Of a DNA stretch of 64,000 bases, positions 493-15,466 are shown piece after piece. Each line of letters starts with the position of its first letter. Within the stretch, counting starts at the first letter, position 1. Source of the stretch: Corynebacterium ammoniagenes DSM 20306 (GTDB lineage: Bacteria; Actinomycetota; Actinomycetes; Mycobacteriales; Mycobacteriaceae); assembly GCF_001941425.1 (NCBI RefSeq), contig NZ_CP009244.1:2232001-2296000 (forward strand). The letters are read 5' to 3'. Below the pieces are notes generated by a model. That model saw only the letters and a list, made by a program, of their open reading frames with translations, was not told the origin of the DNA and did no database searches. A program made the translations under genes and the position numbers.

Positions 493-1545
493 GTGATCAT
501 TCTGAATAAATTTTCCTCACTTGCAGATATAACGACGCTCGCCGCGGCCCCTACTACTCCCGGTGATGCCGTGAAGGATGTCTCCAGCTGGTGGTCGGAT
601 CCAAACACCAGAGAGTGGCTCATTAATCGCCCCATTGCCATCGGCATCATTATTGTTGTTGCCTTAATTTTGCAGTGGATCTTGCGACGCGTGATCAATA
701 AGTTGGCTCAATCTTCTATTGAAAAGAAGGGATCGCGCTCAAATCCCATTAGTAAAATAGGGATACCCGGCGCGAATAATAAAAAACAAAAAGCGAAGCA
801 GGAAAAGCAACTTCAATCCATCGATAAGTCGCGGGAGAATCGACGCGTTTCGCGCATTAAGACGCTCGCTAATGTGGCTCGTTCCGCCTCCGCGATTGTG
901 GTGTGGGCCTGGGCAGTACTCGCAATCTTGGACCAAGTTGGAGTCAACATTGCTCCTTTGATTGCTTCCGCTGGTGTTTTGGGTGTCGCACTTGGTTTTG
1001 GTGCACAGTCCTTGGTCAAGGATTTTCTTTCTGGCATTTTCATGCTCTTGGAAGACCAATACGGCATTGGTGACACGATTGATTTAGGCGATGGCGTCTT
1101 TGGCGACGTCGAAGAAATTACCCTGCGCATTACGACGGTCCGGGATATGGATGGTGCCCTGTGGTACATCCGCAACGGCGAGATTCTCCAGGTCGCTAAC
1201 CACTCCGATGAATTCTCGGTAGCACGTATCCAGGTTCCTGTGGGCTTGTCCAATGACACAGAAAAGGCCTATGAGGTCATTGAAAATAGTGTGCGCGCAG
1301 CTGCTAAGACCCCTGAGGTTTCTGGCTTGATTCTAGATGAACCAGTGGTCAACGGCGTCACAGATTTCCAACCGGACTACCTGTCCTTCCGTGCCTCCGT
1401 AAAGACTCTTCCGGGTTCACAATGGCAAGTCCAGCGCATCTTGCAAGGTCGCGTGCTTAACTCAATGCATGATGCCGGCATTGTTACCCCTTACCCGTAT
1501 GGTATTGGTATCACTGCCCCACAGATGACGAAGGATGAGGAATAG
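493..1545 (+). CDS. MscS-family mechanosensitive ion channel
   Basis: A 350-residue membrane protein of the small-conductance mechanosensitive channel family, which opens under membrane tension and releases solutes on hypo-osmotic shock; the corynebacterial relative MscCG also exports glutamate. Predicted membrane segments lie near residues 47-65, 132-148 and 153-187. The third carries the family's Gly/Ala-rich pore helix (GVLGVALGFGAQSLVKDFLS), followed by the soluble beta domain. A basic, Lys-rich linker (about residues 75-125) separates the first two segments. It lacks the long C-terminal extension of MscCG. The GTG start at 493 is preceded by GAAAGG. It overlaps or abuts the globin gene, so the two are probably cotranscribed. 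Confidence 0.88.
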   Translation: MIILNKFSSLADITTLAAAPTTPGDAVKDVSSWWSDPNTREWLINRPIAIGIIIVVALILQWILRRVINKLAQSSIEKKGSRSNPISKIGIPGANNKKQKAKQEKQLQSIDKSRENRRVSRIKTLANVARSASAIVVWAWAVLAILDQVGVNIAPLIASAGVLGVALGFGAQSLVKDFLSGIFMLLEDQYGIGDTIDLGDGVFGDVEEITLRITTVRDMDGALWYIRNGEILQVANHSDEFSVARIQVPVGLSNDTEKAYEVIENSVRAAAKTPEVSGLILDEPVVNGVTDFQPDYLSFRASVKTLPGSQWQVQRILQGRVLNSMHDAGIVTPYPYGIGITAPQMTKDEE

Positions 1546-9749: not shown

Positions 9750-10391
9750 ATGCTCGATACGGGAAAATTGACGGACGTCATCTACACGGCCGGTAAAGTC
9801 TTCGACAATCTCCGAAGCGACCGGCTCGCGACACAATCTTTTATTTCTAACGGAGATATTCGAGGCATTGCGAGCCGAGCTGATCTCGAGCTGCTTAAAG
9901 ACCTCAATGACGCCGCAAAAATCATCCTTGAGTGCCATAACAACAACATTTCGCTTAGTCCTAGCGTTGTCATTTCTATCAACTCTGCGATGACACGTTC
10001 AGCGGCACTTCGACCCGGAGTTTTTCGTCAGGACAGCGATAACATCGGGGTTTCTACTCGTTTTGGAGATCACCGACCTTTTGCAGTTCAAGAAACTGAT
10101 CTCCAGAAGTTCATCAACGAGGCTTCAGTACTCTCCATTGAGAAGGCGGCTGCTACCCTTTTCGTTTCTATCGCAAAAGCTCAACCTTTCGGGGACGGTA
10201 ACAAACGCACAGCGTTGTTAGCAGCAAATCTGCTTCTGCTGCCATCAAACAAAATACTGACAGTCCCTTTCAAGGACGACGACCCTGAAGTTTCAGCCAA
10301 GTTCAATGACTTGCTCGCGCGTGCATACATCTACGATGAGGTGGACGCATGCGTAGATTACATGGCGTCTCGAGGAATCATGCCCTTTTAA
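9750..10391 (+). CDS. Fic/Doc-fold protein with altered catalytic motif (His to Gln)
   Basis: A 213-residue Fic-domain protein. The flap region (RPGVFRQDS followed by GDHRPF) and the core helix motif AQPFGDGNKRTALLAAN are clear, with the Doc-like NKRTA ending. The family normally has His at the first motif position, which activates the target hydroxyl for AMP or phosphate transfer. Here Gln145 (codon CAA, 10182-10184) replaces it, so classical AMPylation or Doc kinase activity is doubtful. The ATG at 9750 has a strong GGGAGG site. The gene sits between tRNA-Arg and a type ISP restriction enzyme. No antitoxin-like small gene is next to it. It may be inactive, regulatory, or of changed chemistry. 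Confidence 0.85.
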   Translation: MLDTGKLTDVIYTAGKVFDNLRSDRLATQSFISNGDIRGIASRADLELLKDLNDAAKIILECHNNNISLSPSVVISINSAMTRSAALRPGVFRQDSDNIGVSTRFGDHRPFAVQETDLQKFINEASVLSIEKAAATLFVSIAKAQPFGDGNKRTALLAANLLLLPSNKILTVPFKDDDPEVSAKFNDLLARAYIYDEVDACVDYMASRGIMPF

Positions 10392-10495: not shown

Positions 10496-13400
10496 ATGAC
10501 TGCGTTTGGTGAAGTACTGGAACAACTCCGCGAAAATCAGCCTCAAGGCAAGTACGGCATTGCTTTTGAGAAGTTGATGGTGAACTTCTTCCGTACTGCC
10601 CCCACTCTTGCAAGCCAATTTGATGAGGTTTATCGCTGGAGTGACTGGCGCTATAATGGCGGCAAATCTGATACTGGCATCGACTTGGTGGCTCACCGAA
10701 TTGATGACGATAGCTGGGTGGCCATCCAAGCGAAGTTCTACAAGGAAACCACCAGTATTCAAAAAAGCCACATTGACTCTTTCTTCGAGGCCAGCGGGCA
10801 TTCCTTTGAAACGGAGAAGGGTAAGGAACACTTCTCGCATCGCTACATCATCTCCACCACCGACAAATGGTCAAAGAATGCTGAAGACGCTCTAGAAAAC
10901 CAGGTCATTGAAACCAGCCGTATTGGTATGTCTGATATTGCCACGGCACCGGTGAATTGGGATGTAGCCTTCCCCGGTTCTGAAATTCAGATCAACCTAT
11001 CCAGGAAAGAAGCATTTGCTCCTCGCAAGCATCAGGTCGAGGCAATCGACATGGTGATGACCGGGTTCGGAAACAATGACCGCGGCAAGTTGATCATGGC
11101 TTGCGGCACGGGCAAGACTTTCACTTCGCTTCGTTTAGCCGAGCAGTACGCAAAAGAAAACGGCAATAAGGCGCGAGTCTTGTTCCTAGTTCCATCAATC
11201 GCGCTGCTCTCGCAGACGCTTCGTGAGTGGACTGCGCAGTCCACGATGGATCTACGTTGCTTCGCGGTGTGTTCAGACACCAAGGTCGGGCGGGCTGCGG
11301 AAGATATTGCCCCGCACGACTTGGAAATACCGGTCTCCACCAATGGTGAGATGATTTCCAAGACTTTTGCGAGCGGTAAGCGTGCTCAAGGTTTGCACGT
11401 AGTCTTTTCCACTTACCAGTCCCTCCCGGCAGTACATGATGCTCAAATGACAGAGGGGGGGGGGATCGAAAACTTCGATCTCATTATCTGCGACGAGGCT
11501 CACCGCACTACCGGTGTAACTCTTGCTGGTGAAGACGCATCCAACTTTGTTCGCGTCCACGATGAGGACTACATCAAGGCGGACAAGCGCCTTTACATGA
11601 CGGCGACTCCGCGCCTCTTCGATGATTCTATTAAGGGCAAGGCAGCAGAGCATTCCGCTGAACTCGCATCCATGGATGATGAGGCCATCTACGGCCCTGA
11701 ATTCCACCGTCTCGGGTTCGGTGAAGCCGTAGAAAAGGGCTTGCTGACGGACTACAAAGTCCTGGTCATGACCGTTGATGAGGATGTTGCGGCAGAAGCA
11801 CTGGCATCTGCACCAAGTCCGGATATTAATCTGACCACAGCATCTGCAATGATTGGTGCGTGGAATGCTCTCGCTAAGCGCTCGGGCAAACTTCAGGGTC
11901 AAAAAGACGGTTTTGACGTTGGTGCGGCACCGATGCAGCGCACCGTTGCTTTTGCGAAAGACATCAAGGCATCAAAGCAGATTGCAGAGTCTTTCCCGTC
12001 ACTTATTGAGACTCACAAAGCACAGCTGATAGAGCACCAAGCACTGTCTGGCGTTGATGCGCAGAATATCAATCTTGAAATTGCCGCGGACCACGTGGAT
12101 GGCACGATGAATGCTCTTGCACGTTCTTCGCGTATTTCTTGGTTGGAAGCGGACATGCCCTCCCAAGAATCCCGCGTTCTCACCAATGCTCGTTGTCTGT
12201 CTGAGGGTGTCGATGTCCCAGGCCTCGATTCCGTTATCTTCTTCAACCCGCGCAATTCGATGGTGGATGTTGTTCAGTCGGTCGGTCGCGTCATGCGTAA
12301 GGCCGAGGGCAAGGACTATGGCTACATCATTCTTCCCGTTGCGGTAGCCCCTGGTGTGAGTCCTTCGCAAGCGCTCAATGATAACTCTCGCTTCAGAGTT
12401 GTCTGGCAGATTCTCAACGCGCTTCGTGCGCACGACGATCGTTTCAACGCAAAAGTGAATTCCATCGCGTTGAACGAAGGTTCAATCGATGACTTACCTC
12501 TCGAGGTAAACCCAGTTGAGGATCCAAAAAAGAAGCTTAATGAAAGTGACGCTCGTAAAGCAGATGATGCCTATGACGATGGCACCATGGCGCAACAGGT
12601 TGCGCTGTTTTCTTTGGAGCAATGGCAAGAAGCCATGTACACGAAGCTTGTGGACAAAGTTGGAACGCGTACCTACTGGGAAGACTGGGCTGATGACGTC
12701 GCATCCATTGCACAGTCACAGATCACCCGTATTAAAGCCCTCGTCGATGGCGCTAATCCAAAACTACGTAAGGAATTCGACCGCTTTGTTGAAGGTCTGC
12801 GAGGTAACCTCAATGACTCCATTACTGATGATGAAGCGATAAGCATGCTGTCGCAGCATCTGATCACAGCACCTGTTTTTGATGCTCTATTTACTGAGTA
12901 TGACTTCTCCACACATAACCCGGTGGCACAAGTCATGCAGCGTATGGCTGATGTGTTGGAGGAGGCCAACCTTGATACAGAGACAGATTCTTTGGAAAAG
13001 TTCTATGAGTCCGTCCGCGTACGTGCTTCTGAAGTATCTTCTGCTTCCGGTAAGCAGCAAGTGATTAAGGAGCTCTACGAGCGCTTCTTCCAAAAAGCAT
13101 TCAAGAAGCAAGCTGAGTCCCTCGGTATTGTTTACACGCCAGTAGAAATCGTGGACTTTATCCTCCGCGCTGCCGATGACGTATCCAAGATACACTTTGG
13201 CAAAGGGCTTACCGATGAAGGTGTCTGCATCCTCGATCCCTTCGCCGGTACCTCCACCTTCATGGTTCGTCTCCTGCAGTCTGGTCTCATCAAACCGGAG
13301 GATTTGGCACGCAAGTACGCGAATGAACTCTTCGCAACCGAGATCATGTTGCTGGCGTACTATGTTTCCGCCGTCAACATTGAAACGACGTACAACGCAC

Positions 13401-15466
13401 TTCGAGCCGAGGAGGCTTTCCGTAAAGGCGAAACTGAGCCTGAATATGTTCCATTCGACGGCATCGCGCTTGCGGATACTTTCCAGATCCATGAAGAGGG
13501 CGACATCCTCGACCTGGAAGTGTTCAAAAATAACAACCAGCGCATTGAGCGGCAAAAGACTGCACCCATCAACGTGGTAATCGGAAACCCTCCCTATTCT
13601 GCTGGTCAGCACTCTGCGAACGATAATAATGCGAACCTGAAATACCCAACTTTGGATAAACGTATTGCAGAGACCTACGCTGCGAAGTCGACTGCCACGA
13701 ACAAGAATTCTCTATACGACTCTTACCTACGCGCATTCCGATGGGCCACCGATCGAATTGGCTCCCAAGGCATCGTCGCATTCGTTTCCAACGGCGGCTG
13801 GCTCGACGGAAACACAGGAGATGGAATCCGCCTGTCCCTGGCAGAAGACTTCACTGATATCTATGTCTTCAATCTAAGGGGAAACCAGCGCACAGCCGGT
13901 GAACTTTCGCGCAAAGAAGGCGGCAAGGTCTTCGGCTCTGGTTCGCGAAGCACCATCGCGGTCACCATTGGTATCAAGGACCCGACTCATGGAAGATCTC
14001 GAATCCACTACAGAGACATCGGAGACTATTTAAGTGCTGAGGAAAAGCTAGAAATCGTAAGTGAATCATCCATTCTAAAACTAGAATGGGACCACATCGA
14101 ACCAAATATCCATGGCGATTGGATCAGCCAAAGGAACGAAAAGTTCACGCTGTGGCCAAAACTAGGAAGCACAAATTCCCAGGGACTGCAATTCTTCAAA
14201 AAGGTTTCTCTAGGCCTAGGGACAAGCCGAGATGCTTGGACATATTCATTCTCTCAGTCCAAATTAACGCTTAACGTAAAGAAATTGGGTAGGAACTTCG
14301 TTAAGGCTAGAGACGAGTTTCATGACGTCAGTCTTCCCCTACATGGCCCAGGTGAGCAACAGGTCAGCGCGTTTTTAAAGCAATTCCCTGGGCACTCGGA
14401 CGGGTCTAAGATCAAGTGGAGCCGTAGTTTGCGTACCTATGCATTCCAAAATAAGGAACTTGTGTTTAATGAAGACCAACTAACGACGGCAATGTACCGT
14501 CCTTTTAGCAAACAGTCAGTGTATTTTGACAAGCTCTTGAACCATGAGCGTTCAAAGCTTCCCTCAATGTTCCCTACTCAATGGCACAATAACGTGGGAT
14601 TCTATCAAGTCGGTAATGGCTCGGCAGTTCCCTTTTCAGCCTTTGCGACAAAACTCCTTCCAGATCTTCATGTCACTGGTGCCGGCTCAGGGGGCCAATT
14701 CTTTCCTCGTTTTACCTGGGAACCTCTCGAATTTAATGATGGTGGCTTATTCACAGAAGGCAGCACATCCACTTCAGAACAAGAGGCTTCCATGTACGGA
14801 CAAGTCGGCGAAGTCGTTGACGGTTATCGCCGCATTGACAACATCACCGACGAGATCAAAAAGCTGTACCGAGGTTCTTTGGGCTCGGATATTTCAGGCG
14901 ATGATATCTTCCACTTTGTGTACGGAAAGCTGCACGATCCGGAGTACCGGACGAAGTATGCTGCTGACTTGAAGAAGATGCTGCCACATATTGAAACTCC
15001 GGCGACGCGAGCGGAATTCGATAAGTTTGCAGTTGCGGGCAAGCAACTGATGGATCTCCACGTGAACTACGAAGATGCAGAACCTTGGCCGCTGACGTTC
15101 AAGGTCAACGGTGATGAGAATGACCGTGAGACGTGGCGTGTAATCAAGCTCGCGTGGGCAAAGAAAAAGGACCCAGAGACTGGTAAAAACGTCAATGATG
15201 TGACGACGATGAAATACAACAAGCGCGTCACCATCACGGATATTCCAGCAGAAGCCGATGAGTACATGCTGGGATCACGCTCAGCTTTGGCATGGATCAT
15301 TGACCGCTACCTGGTGAAGAAGGACAAGGCATCAGGAATTGTTAATGACCCGAATGATTGGGCCGATGAAGTGGGCAACCCGCGCTACATTGCTGATTTG
15401 ATTGGCAAGGTAACGCGGGTGGCAGTTGAGACCGTCCGAATCGTTAAGAGCTTGGAATCTGAGTAA
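10496..15466 (+). CDS. Single-chain type ISP restriction-modification enzyme (LlaGI/LlaBIII-like)
   Basis: A 1656-residue protein combining all restriction-modification activities. In order it has an Mrr-like nuclease (Asp63 with Gln78-Ala-Lys80), a superfamily 2 helicase (Walker A CGTGKT near 203, DEAH near 333, TATPR near 368, QSVGRVMRK near 594), a coupler, and an N6-adenine methyltransferase (DPFAGTSTF near 915, GNPPY near 1030). A target-recognition region of lower GC by eye (about 1180-1400) and a conserved tail follow. The family methylates one strand of a short asymmetric site and translocates to cleave between head-to-head sites. A run of ten G lies in frame just before the DEAH box. 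Its 3' end overlaps the convergent hydrolase gene by 23 bases. Confidence 0.93.
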   Translation: MTAFGEVLEQLRENQPQGKYGIAFEKLMVNFFRTAPTLASQFDEVYRWSDWRYNGGKSDTGIDLVAHRIDDDSWVAIQAKFYKETTSIQKSHIDSFFEASGHSFETEKGKEHFSHRYIISTTDKWSKNAEDALENQVIETSRIGMSDIATAPVNWDVAFPGSEIQINLSRKEAFAPRKHQVEAIDMVMTGFGNNDRGKLIMACGTGKTFTSLRLAEQYAKENGNKARVLFLVPSIALLSQTLREWTAQSTMDLRCFAVCSDTKVGRAAEDIAPHDLEIPVSTNGEMISKTFASGKRAQGLHVVFSTYQSLPAVHDAQMTEGGGIENFDLIICDEAHRTTGVTLAGEDASNFVRVHDEDYIKADKRLYMTATPRLFDDSIKGKAAEHSAELASMDDEAIYGPEFHRLGFGEAVEKGLLTDYKVLVMTVDEDVAAEALASAPSPDINLTTASAMIGAWNALAKRSGKLQGQKDGFDVGAAPMQRTVAFAKDIKASKQIAESFPSLIETHKAQLIEHQALSGVDAQNINLEIAADHVDGTMNALARSSRISWLEADMPSQESRVLTNARCLSEGVDVPGLDSVIFFNPRNSMVDVVQSVGRVMRKAEGKDYGYIILPVAVAPGVSPSQALNDNSRFRVVWQILNALRAHDDRFNAKVNSIALNEGSIDDLPLEVNPVEDPKKKLNESDARKADDAYDDGTMAQQVALFSLEQWQEAMYTKLVDKVGTRTYWEDWADDVASIAQSQITRIKALVDGANPKLRKEFDRFVEGLRGNLNDSITDDEAISMLSQHLITAPVFDALFTEYDFSTHNPVAQVMQRMADVLEEANLDTETDSLEKFYESVRVRASEVSSASGKQQVIKELYERFFQKAFKKQAESLGIVYTPVEIVDFILRAADDVSKIHFGKGLTDEGVCILDPFAGTSTFMVRLLQSGLIKPEDLARKYANELFATEIMLLAYYVSAVNIETTYNALRAEEAFRKGETEPEYVPFDGIALADTFQIHEEGDILDLEVFKNNNQRIERQKTAPINVVIGNPPYSAGQHSANDNNANLKYPTLDKRIAETYAAKSTATNKNSLYDSYLRAFRWATDRIGSQGIVAFVSNGGWLDGNTGDGIRLSLAEDFTDIYVFNLRGNQRTAGELSRKEGGKVFGSGSRSTIAVTIGIKDPTHGRSRIHYRDIGDYLSAEEKLEIVSESSILKLEWDHIEPNIHGDWISQRNEKFTLWPKLGSTNSQGLQFFKKVSLGLGTSRDAWTYSFSQSKLTLNVKKLGRNFVKARDEFHDVSLPLHGPGEQQVSAFLKQFPGHSDGSKIKWSRSLRTYAFQNKELVFNEDQLTTAMYRPFSKQSVYFDKLLNHERSKLPSMFPTQWHNNVGFYQVGNGSAVPFSAFATKLLPDLHVTGAGSGGQFFPRFTWEPLEFNDGGLFTEGSTSTSEQEASMYGQVGEVVDGYRRIDNITDEIKKLYRGSLGSDISGDDIFHFVYGKLHDPEYRTKYAADLKKMLPHIETPATRAEFDKFAVAGKQLMDLHVNYEDAEPWPLTFKVNGDENDRETWRVIKLAWAKKKDPETGKNVNDVTTMKYNKRVTITDIPAEADEYMLGSRSALAWIIDRYLVKKDKASGIVNDPNDWADEVGNPRYIADLIGKVTRVAVETVRIVKSLESE
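11455..11464 (+). repeat. Homopolymer of ten G inside the restriction gene
   Basis: Ten consecutive G bases end the Glu320 codon and encode Gly321-Gly323, about ten residues before the DEAH box. At ten G the frame is open. Loss or gain of one or two G would shift the frame and cut the protein to roughly a fifth of its length. It is the longest homopolymer I saw in the window. Confidence 0.9.

Follow-up and report, generated by a model that had tools for sequence, protein, structure and literature searches.

The run of ten G (G10) at 11455-11464, within a single-chain type ISP restriction-modification gene of Corynebacterium ammoniagenes DSM 20306, is probably a phase-variation (contingency) switch that works by slipped-strand changes in tract length. 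The gene lies in the window, by which we mean the whole 64,000-nt stretch of DNA that was analysed. Comparison with other species suggests, as the likely wider picture, that the ISP genes of Corynebacterium form a contingency family in which switchability is convergent. Tract gains would number about ten or more and be spread over seven positions, the first just after helicase motif I and the last in the specificity domain, and at any moment the frame would be close to random. This would take place where indel-correcting MutS repair is absent (shown for this genome only), and whole populations would then contain both methylated, restricting cells and permissive ones.

By its sequence, the window gene is a type ISP restriction-modification enzyme like LlaGI and LlaBIII (PDB 5ffj, 4xqk), with which it has in common both the domain architecture and a long sequence match. 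The Pfam domains Mrr_cat_2, ResIII/DEAD, Helicase_C, ISP_coupler, N6_Mtase and Type_ISP_C follow one another along the 1656 residues, which is the order of a type ISP enzyme. LlaBIII was matched by phmmer over residues 5-1653 of the window protein and LlaGI from residue 176 onward, the LlaGI chain in the PDB being without the nuclease part. The sequence-only reading had assigned the gene to this type, and the domain order and both matches agree with it. GTGKT, DEAH and NPPY are present in the translation; we take these to be catalytic motifs of the helicase and the methyltransferase. Directly upstream, on the same strand, lies a gene of the Fic/DOC family (9750-10391).

Features of the ISP gene (window coordinates) and positions of the G/C runs in full-length ISP copies of Corynebacterium (query residues)
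Feature	Position	Strand	Remarks
Type ISP restriction-modification gene	10496..15466	+	single chain, 1656 aa, open
Mrr_cat_2 nuclease domain	10595..10984	+	residues 34-163; PF13156, E 1.9e-42
ResIII, first RecA-like half of SF2 helicase	11018..11614	+	residues 175-373; PF04851, E 5.1e-27
G10 tract	11455..11464	+	third base of E320 plus G321-G323, in frame
DEAH box (D333-H336)	11492..11503	+	starts 27 nt past G10
First stop, one of the two other frames read from G10	11517..11519	+	
First stop, second other frame read from G10	11530..11532	+	
Helicase_C	12065..12301	+	residues 524-602; Pfam
ISP_coupler	12674..13048	+	residues 727-851; PF22240, E 3.4e-52
N6_Mtase	13058..13840	+	residues 855-1115, with IGNPPY motif; Pfam
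Type_ISP_C specificity domain	14192..15400	+	residues 1233-1635; PF18135, E 1.9e-82
Run site	residue ~222		G8, G9, G10
Run site	residue 320		G10 of the window
Run site	residue ~555		G7, G8
Run site	residue ~670-700		C11 in two distant genes
Run site	residue ~980		C9, C9, C10, C10, C11, C14, plus one unresolved
Run site	residue 1108		G11
Run site	residue 1535		G11

G10 is the sole homopolymer of at least seven bases in the window. It reads in frame as GAG GGG GGG GGG ATC, at nucleotide 960 of the 4971 of the gene, and is housed in a loop of the first helicase half at which most aligned relatives, and the solved sequences of both LlaGI and LlaBIII, are three residues shorter. As in contingency genes generally, a homopolymer of at least about eight bases lies inside a reading frame, and a change in its length would truncate the product: both alternative frames end 17-22 codons beyond the tract, so that, after an indel of one or two bases, translation would stop short of a complete helicase. 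The run scan and the translation thus bear out what had been read from the letters, namely that ten G stand in frame just ahead of the DEAH box, that no other homopolymer of this length occurs in the window, and that a slip of one or two bases truncates the protein before the motor is complete and before the methyltransferase. The closeness to the DEAH box is given no special weight, since the tracts of relatives lie at six other sites.

For the window tract itself we infer slippage, reversibility, a loss of both activities and a benefit, as follows. Replication slippage would alter the number of G in the tract, and any change other than a multiple of three would lead into a frame with a stop within about 25 codons. 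Everything from the DEAH box onward, with the second helicase half, coupler, methyltransferase and specificity domain, would be missing from the truncated chain; restriction would be lost, most likely together with methylation, and the reverse slip would restore them. A clonal population would then consist of restricting, methylated cells and of permissive, unmethylated cells, hedging phage defence against DNA uptake and self-cost. It is plausible that restriction and methylation go off together, and a switch in which a single chain loses nuclease and methyltransferase at once should be a safe one. A methyltransferase plus specificity fragment of the Helicobacter pylori ISP enzyme is reported to be an active methyltransferase on its own (PMC3936762).

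No match to MutS_V was found in the genome of the window (as a control, the domain was present in 11 of 14 known genomes), and NucS is present. In Mycobacterium smegmatis, NucS is reported to leave 1-2 bp indels uncorrected, which the authors tie to phase variation (PMC11551767). On this basis, a slip at a run of ten is expected to stay uncorrected.

At the G10 site, 30 loci of other genomes could be aligned; they have no more than 2 to 4 G in a row at this place, none has the tract, and most are three residues shorter than the window protein. The nearest relative by protein (G209, 85%) is without the run and without the three codons. Since the relatives have no tract at the site, G10 is, on this comparison, a private feature and probably of recent origin, and as even G209 is without it, G10 has no evolutionary record of its own. 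The sequence-only reading had regarded replacement of the tract by mixed Gly codons in close relatives as a refutation; the tract is indeed absent there, but mostly the inserted codons are absent altogether. A search for further strains of the same species, over one genome per species, gave none, so that G10 was seen at one length only; 23 of the 34 loci compared in genome_contigs were 100% identical, being the same assemblies, and no relative was found in viral_contigs.

The evidence for switching comes instead from the gene family. A search of 242 Corynebacterium genomes, one per species, gave matches in 95 at an E value of 1e-50 or better, the window's genome among them. Removal of 28 of the 110 loci examined (contig ends, large inserts, decayed pieces) left 82 full-length copies; C-terminal remnants in two genomes (G238, G239) lie outside the examined loci. 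A G/C run of at least seven is found in 17 of the 82 copies, the window's included, spread over seven sites. The earlier expectation that a poly-G tract in a Corynebacterium ISP enzyme would be unusual is thereby refuted.

The runs coincide with breaks in the reading frame. A frame change at a run was scored when two pieces of the alignment met at the run or no more than 13 nt away; in one copy (L143) the unaligned gap was 155 nt. On this basis the frame shifts at the run in 11 of the 16 resolved run-bearing copies, and 5 are in frame, close to the one third expected for random lengths. One of these five, that of C. riegelii FDAARGOS_1114 (L074), is in frame across its C10, yet has a stop at query residue 48. 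Among the 65 copies that have no run of at least seven, 60 are open, three have a stop and two a frame break. Frame breaks thus number 11 of 16 with a run against 2 of 65 without (Fisher p 2.5e-8, ignoring relatedness). At one locus, L131, a second C11 was considered as a second tract and rejected: the two C11 halves are separated by a run of N, a scaffold gap, and the locus was not counted as resolved.

Tract length differs between sister genes at the same place. The C tract is C14 in G134, C11 in G135, C9 in G160 and C10 in G161, at pairwise dS of 0.23-0.45, and the G tract is an in-frame G8 in C. pseudodiphtheriticum DSM 44287 but an out-of-frame G9 in C. propinquum DSM 44285. Parsimony on a tree of the N-terminal part (92 rows) gives 13 tract changes, or 12 without the insertion-bearing G086. 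Near residue 980, the poly-C tracts of the G134 group and the G153 group share a near-identical context, yet stand at separate places in the N-terminal tree; they may have arisen once and been carried over when C-terminal halves recombined. As such transfer may merge origins, about ten gains in the genus is a safer estimate than 13.

The tracts are more frequent in ISP genes than the number of such runs in the genomes would predict. In the genome of the window, a single contig of 2,790,185 bases, there are five G/C runs of at least eight, four of which reach nine or more; from translations read by eye, with no gene caller, the four other than G10 look intergenic, a 134-codon minus-strand frame that overlaps one of them (L002) being judged spurious. 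From the 549 runs of at least nine in the 95 ISP-bearing genomes, about 1.06 would be expected inside the 103 ISP gene stretches, assuming a mean genome size of 2.55 Mb. The number observed is 15, or 14 distinct tracts, as L131 is counted twice across its scaffold gap; the enrichment is about 13-fold. A first-order Markov model is milder, with 4.4 runs expected and an excess of only about 3.4-fold; we prefer the genome-based expectation. The distribution of run lengths in the 82 copies is two-humped: for lengths 3 to 7 the counts are 7258, 1448, 259, 22 and 1, and for lengths 8 to 11 they are 2, 3, 4 and 7, with one further run of 14, so that the minimum of 1 at length 7 is followed by 17 runs at 8-14 (the L131 halves counted apart).

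The broken copies appear to be still under constraint. Going by the stop lists of the alignments, the 11 broken copies show no further stop or frame break where they are aligned; L120 has three listed stops, all within 45 nt past the tract and in the upstream frame. For the broken sister genes L137 and L138, dS is 0.234 and dN 0.018, an overall dN/dS of 0.076, and for two stretches past the tract the ratio is 0.153 and 0.066. Since both sisters are out of frame and yet clean, the break is unlikely to be old and permanent; a pairwise dN/dS nevertheless leaves room for recent, one-way breaks.

This constraint bears on the alternative that the runs are a mutational hot spot with no adaptive switching, in which runs arise and lengthen by bias in a genome unable to repair indels and simply break a dispensable gene. 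With no MutS_V match, runs should be unstable everywhere, and there are 549 of at least nine across the 95 genomes; several ISP copies are, moreover, split by large inserts or decayed. Such a process fits poorly with the roughly 13-fold enrichment inside ISP genes, and with broken copies that are free of a second lesion wherever they align and have low dN/dS beyond the break, and other decay is rare, with a stop or frame break in only 5 of the 65 run-free full-length copies. We consider it an unlikely explanation.

It is also conceivable, but very improbable, that the tracts serve programmed slippage in transcription or translation, or translation restart, giving a fixed mixture of full-length and truncated products from one DNA sequence. 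RNA polymerase can slip at homopolymers, and in 5 of the 11 broken copies (L126, L127, L128, L135, L138) a start codon of the downstream frame lies no more than 45 nt upstream of the stop. A fixed mixture sits badly with a tract length that itself varies in the DNA between sister species and with sites that are not conserved. In the window, scanned from 60 nt ahead of the stops to 300 nt past them, the closest codon for an in-frame restart, an ATG, lies 67-80 nt beyond the stops and in our reading appears to have no clear ribosome-binding site. Least probable of all is that the run lengths are sequencing or assembly artefacts: homopolymers are error-prone and L131 has its run of N between two C11 halves, but errors lengthen or shorten a run that is already there by about one base and are not expected to create runs of 8-14 at seven sites, the window's own tract is in frame, and broken copies also occur in genomes of one or two contigs (G073, G014, G134, G135, G096).

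Phase variation by slipped-strand change is the reading that we retain for these tracts. The sequence-only reading had proposed such a switch for G10; the gene family supports it through repeated tract gain, breaks at tracts and constrained frames, and since the differences in tract length, the broken frames and the constraint are all seen in relatives only, the proposal is carried over from them to the window tract. Switching does not appear to be general among ISP genes, since 65 of the 82 Corynebacterium copies are free of runs of at least seven and the sampled loci of other genera have no long ones. In a class-level sample of 394 genomes there were 18 matches, including the window's genome, and the 19 loci of the 17 genomes from other genera have no run of at least eight; there is one C7, which was not placed relative to the ISP gene. 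The tract habit thus looks concentrated in Corynebacterium, as far as this small sample goes.

The type of switch is a proven one. In Campylobacter jejuni, the type IIG gene cj0031 is reported to be switched by a tract of G9/G10; like the window gene, cj0031 encodes nuclease and methyltransferase in a single chain with a poly-G of 9-10 inside the frame, methylation and restriction are predicted to be lost together, and the tract is absent from many homologous alleles (PMC4889913). It differs in being type IIG, in its Gram-negative host, in having no ISP-class helicase motor, and in the position of the tract, nucleotide 2573 of 3732 as against 960 of 4971; switching is proven in cj0031 and inferred for the window gene (PMC4889913). 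In Streptomyces coelicolor, switching of Pgl phage resistance at 10^-2 to 10^-4 has been attributed to changes in the length of a G tract in pglX, which, like the window gene, is an actinobacterial methyltransferase gene of a phage-defence system; its tract is 8 G and it belongs to the multi-gene Pgl/BREX system, not to type ISP (PMC4365076), Pgl being described as BREX type 2 (PMC12707154). Many homopolymer tracts are reported in Gardnerella, another actinobacterium, where one that was tested proved variable and some are "associated" with methyltransferase genes (PMC11287997).

Within the ISP class, the Helicobacter pylori gene HP0667-HP0669/JHP0612-0613 is frameshifted in sequenced strains; the two frameshifts of HP0667-HP0669 are reported not to be due to sequence repeats, unlike the run-linked breaks described here, and JHP0612-0613 has one authentic frameshift (PMC3936762). 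For LlaGI and LlaBIII, the available text of the literature matches listed reports no phase variation. Among these matches, which include few subscription papers, the text reports neither a phase-variable type ISP gene nor a phase-variable restriction gene of Corynebacterium. As weak evidence of novelty, then, no report was found for the enzyme class or the genus, and to this is added the repeated independent gain in the same gene.

If the proposed switch is real, repeat-driven phase variation reaches the ATP-driven, single-chain ISP class and the genus Corynebacterium, whose members are common in the human skin, nose and mouth flora. It would account for the split 'pseudogene' annotations of ISP genes, for erratic transformation and phage sensitivity among isolates of one strain, and for mixed methylomes. 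A single gene that has acquired tracts repeatedly and at different sites offers a natural experiment on the origin of contingency loci, and it would become testable whether missing MutS-type repair favours them. Two further runs in the genome of the window may be of the promoter type of variation, going by neighbours named from their translations: a C12 at 1898435-1898446 (L005), which looks intergenic and lies upstream of a transporter-like gene, and a C9 at 2729434-2729442 (L013), which also looks intergenic, about 40 nt before the start of a gene for an FAD-enzyme-like protein.

Some of the loci are badly resolved, with contig joins at L131 and at insertion sequences. In G074 (L129/L130) and G086 (L132/L133), pieces of the ISP gene on separate contigs end at the G/C run (near residues 555 and 980), and in both species they terminate in the ends of an insertion sequence, apparently the same one, another copy of which stands beside an IS110-family transposase gene at L183. 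The end of this element has 92 matches (up to 2 mismatches) in 43 of the 242 genomes, and at least four G precede 16 of the 20 copies viewed, which suggests that it targets G runs.

Other ISP genes are split in the methyltransferase part, near residue 910 in G032, G013 and G102 and near residue 1030 in G142, with some 17 to 54 kb between the pieces, as though the gene served mobile elements for attachment; in L060, residues 915-955 occur a second time as a stray copy, about 1.3 kb downstream from the ISP gene. Recombination seems to swap the half that holds methyltransferase and specificity domain, as judged from the pairs L073/L077 and L081/L082, for which dS is 0.05-0.06 over residues 1-970 and about 0.8-0.9 past residue 990. 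Finally, the ISP gene on the minus strand of L118 (1507-8445), of 2312 codons, has roughly 640 additional residues inserted in frame between methyltransferase and specificity domain, with no Pfam match in the insert.
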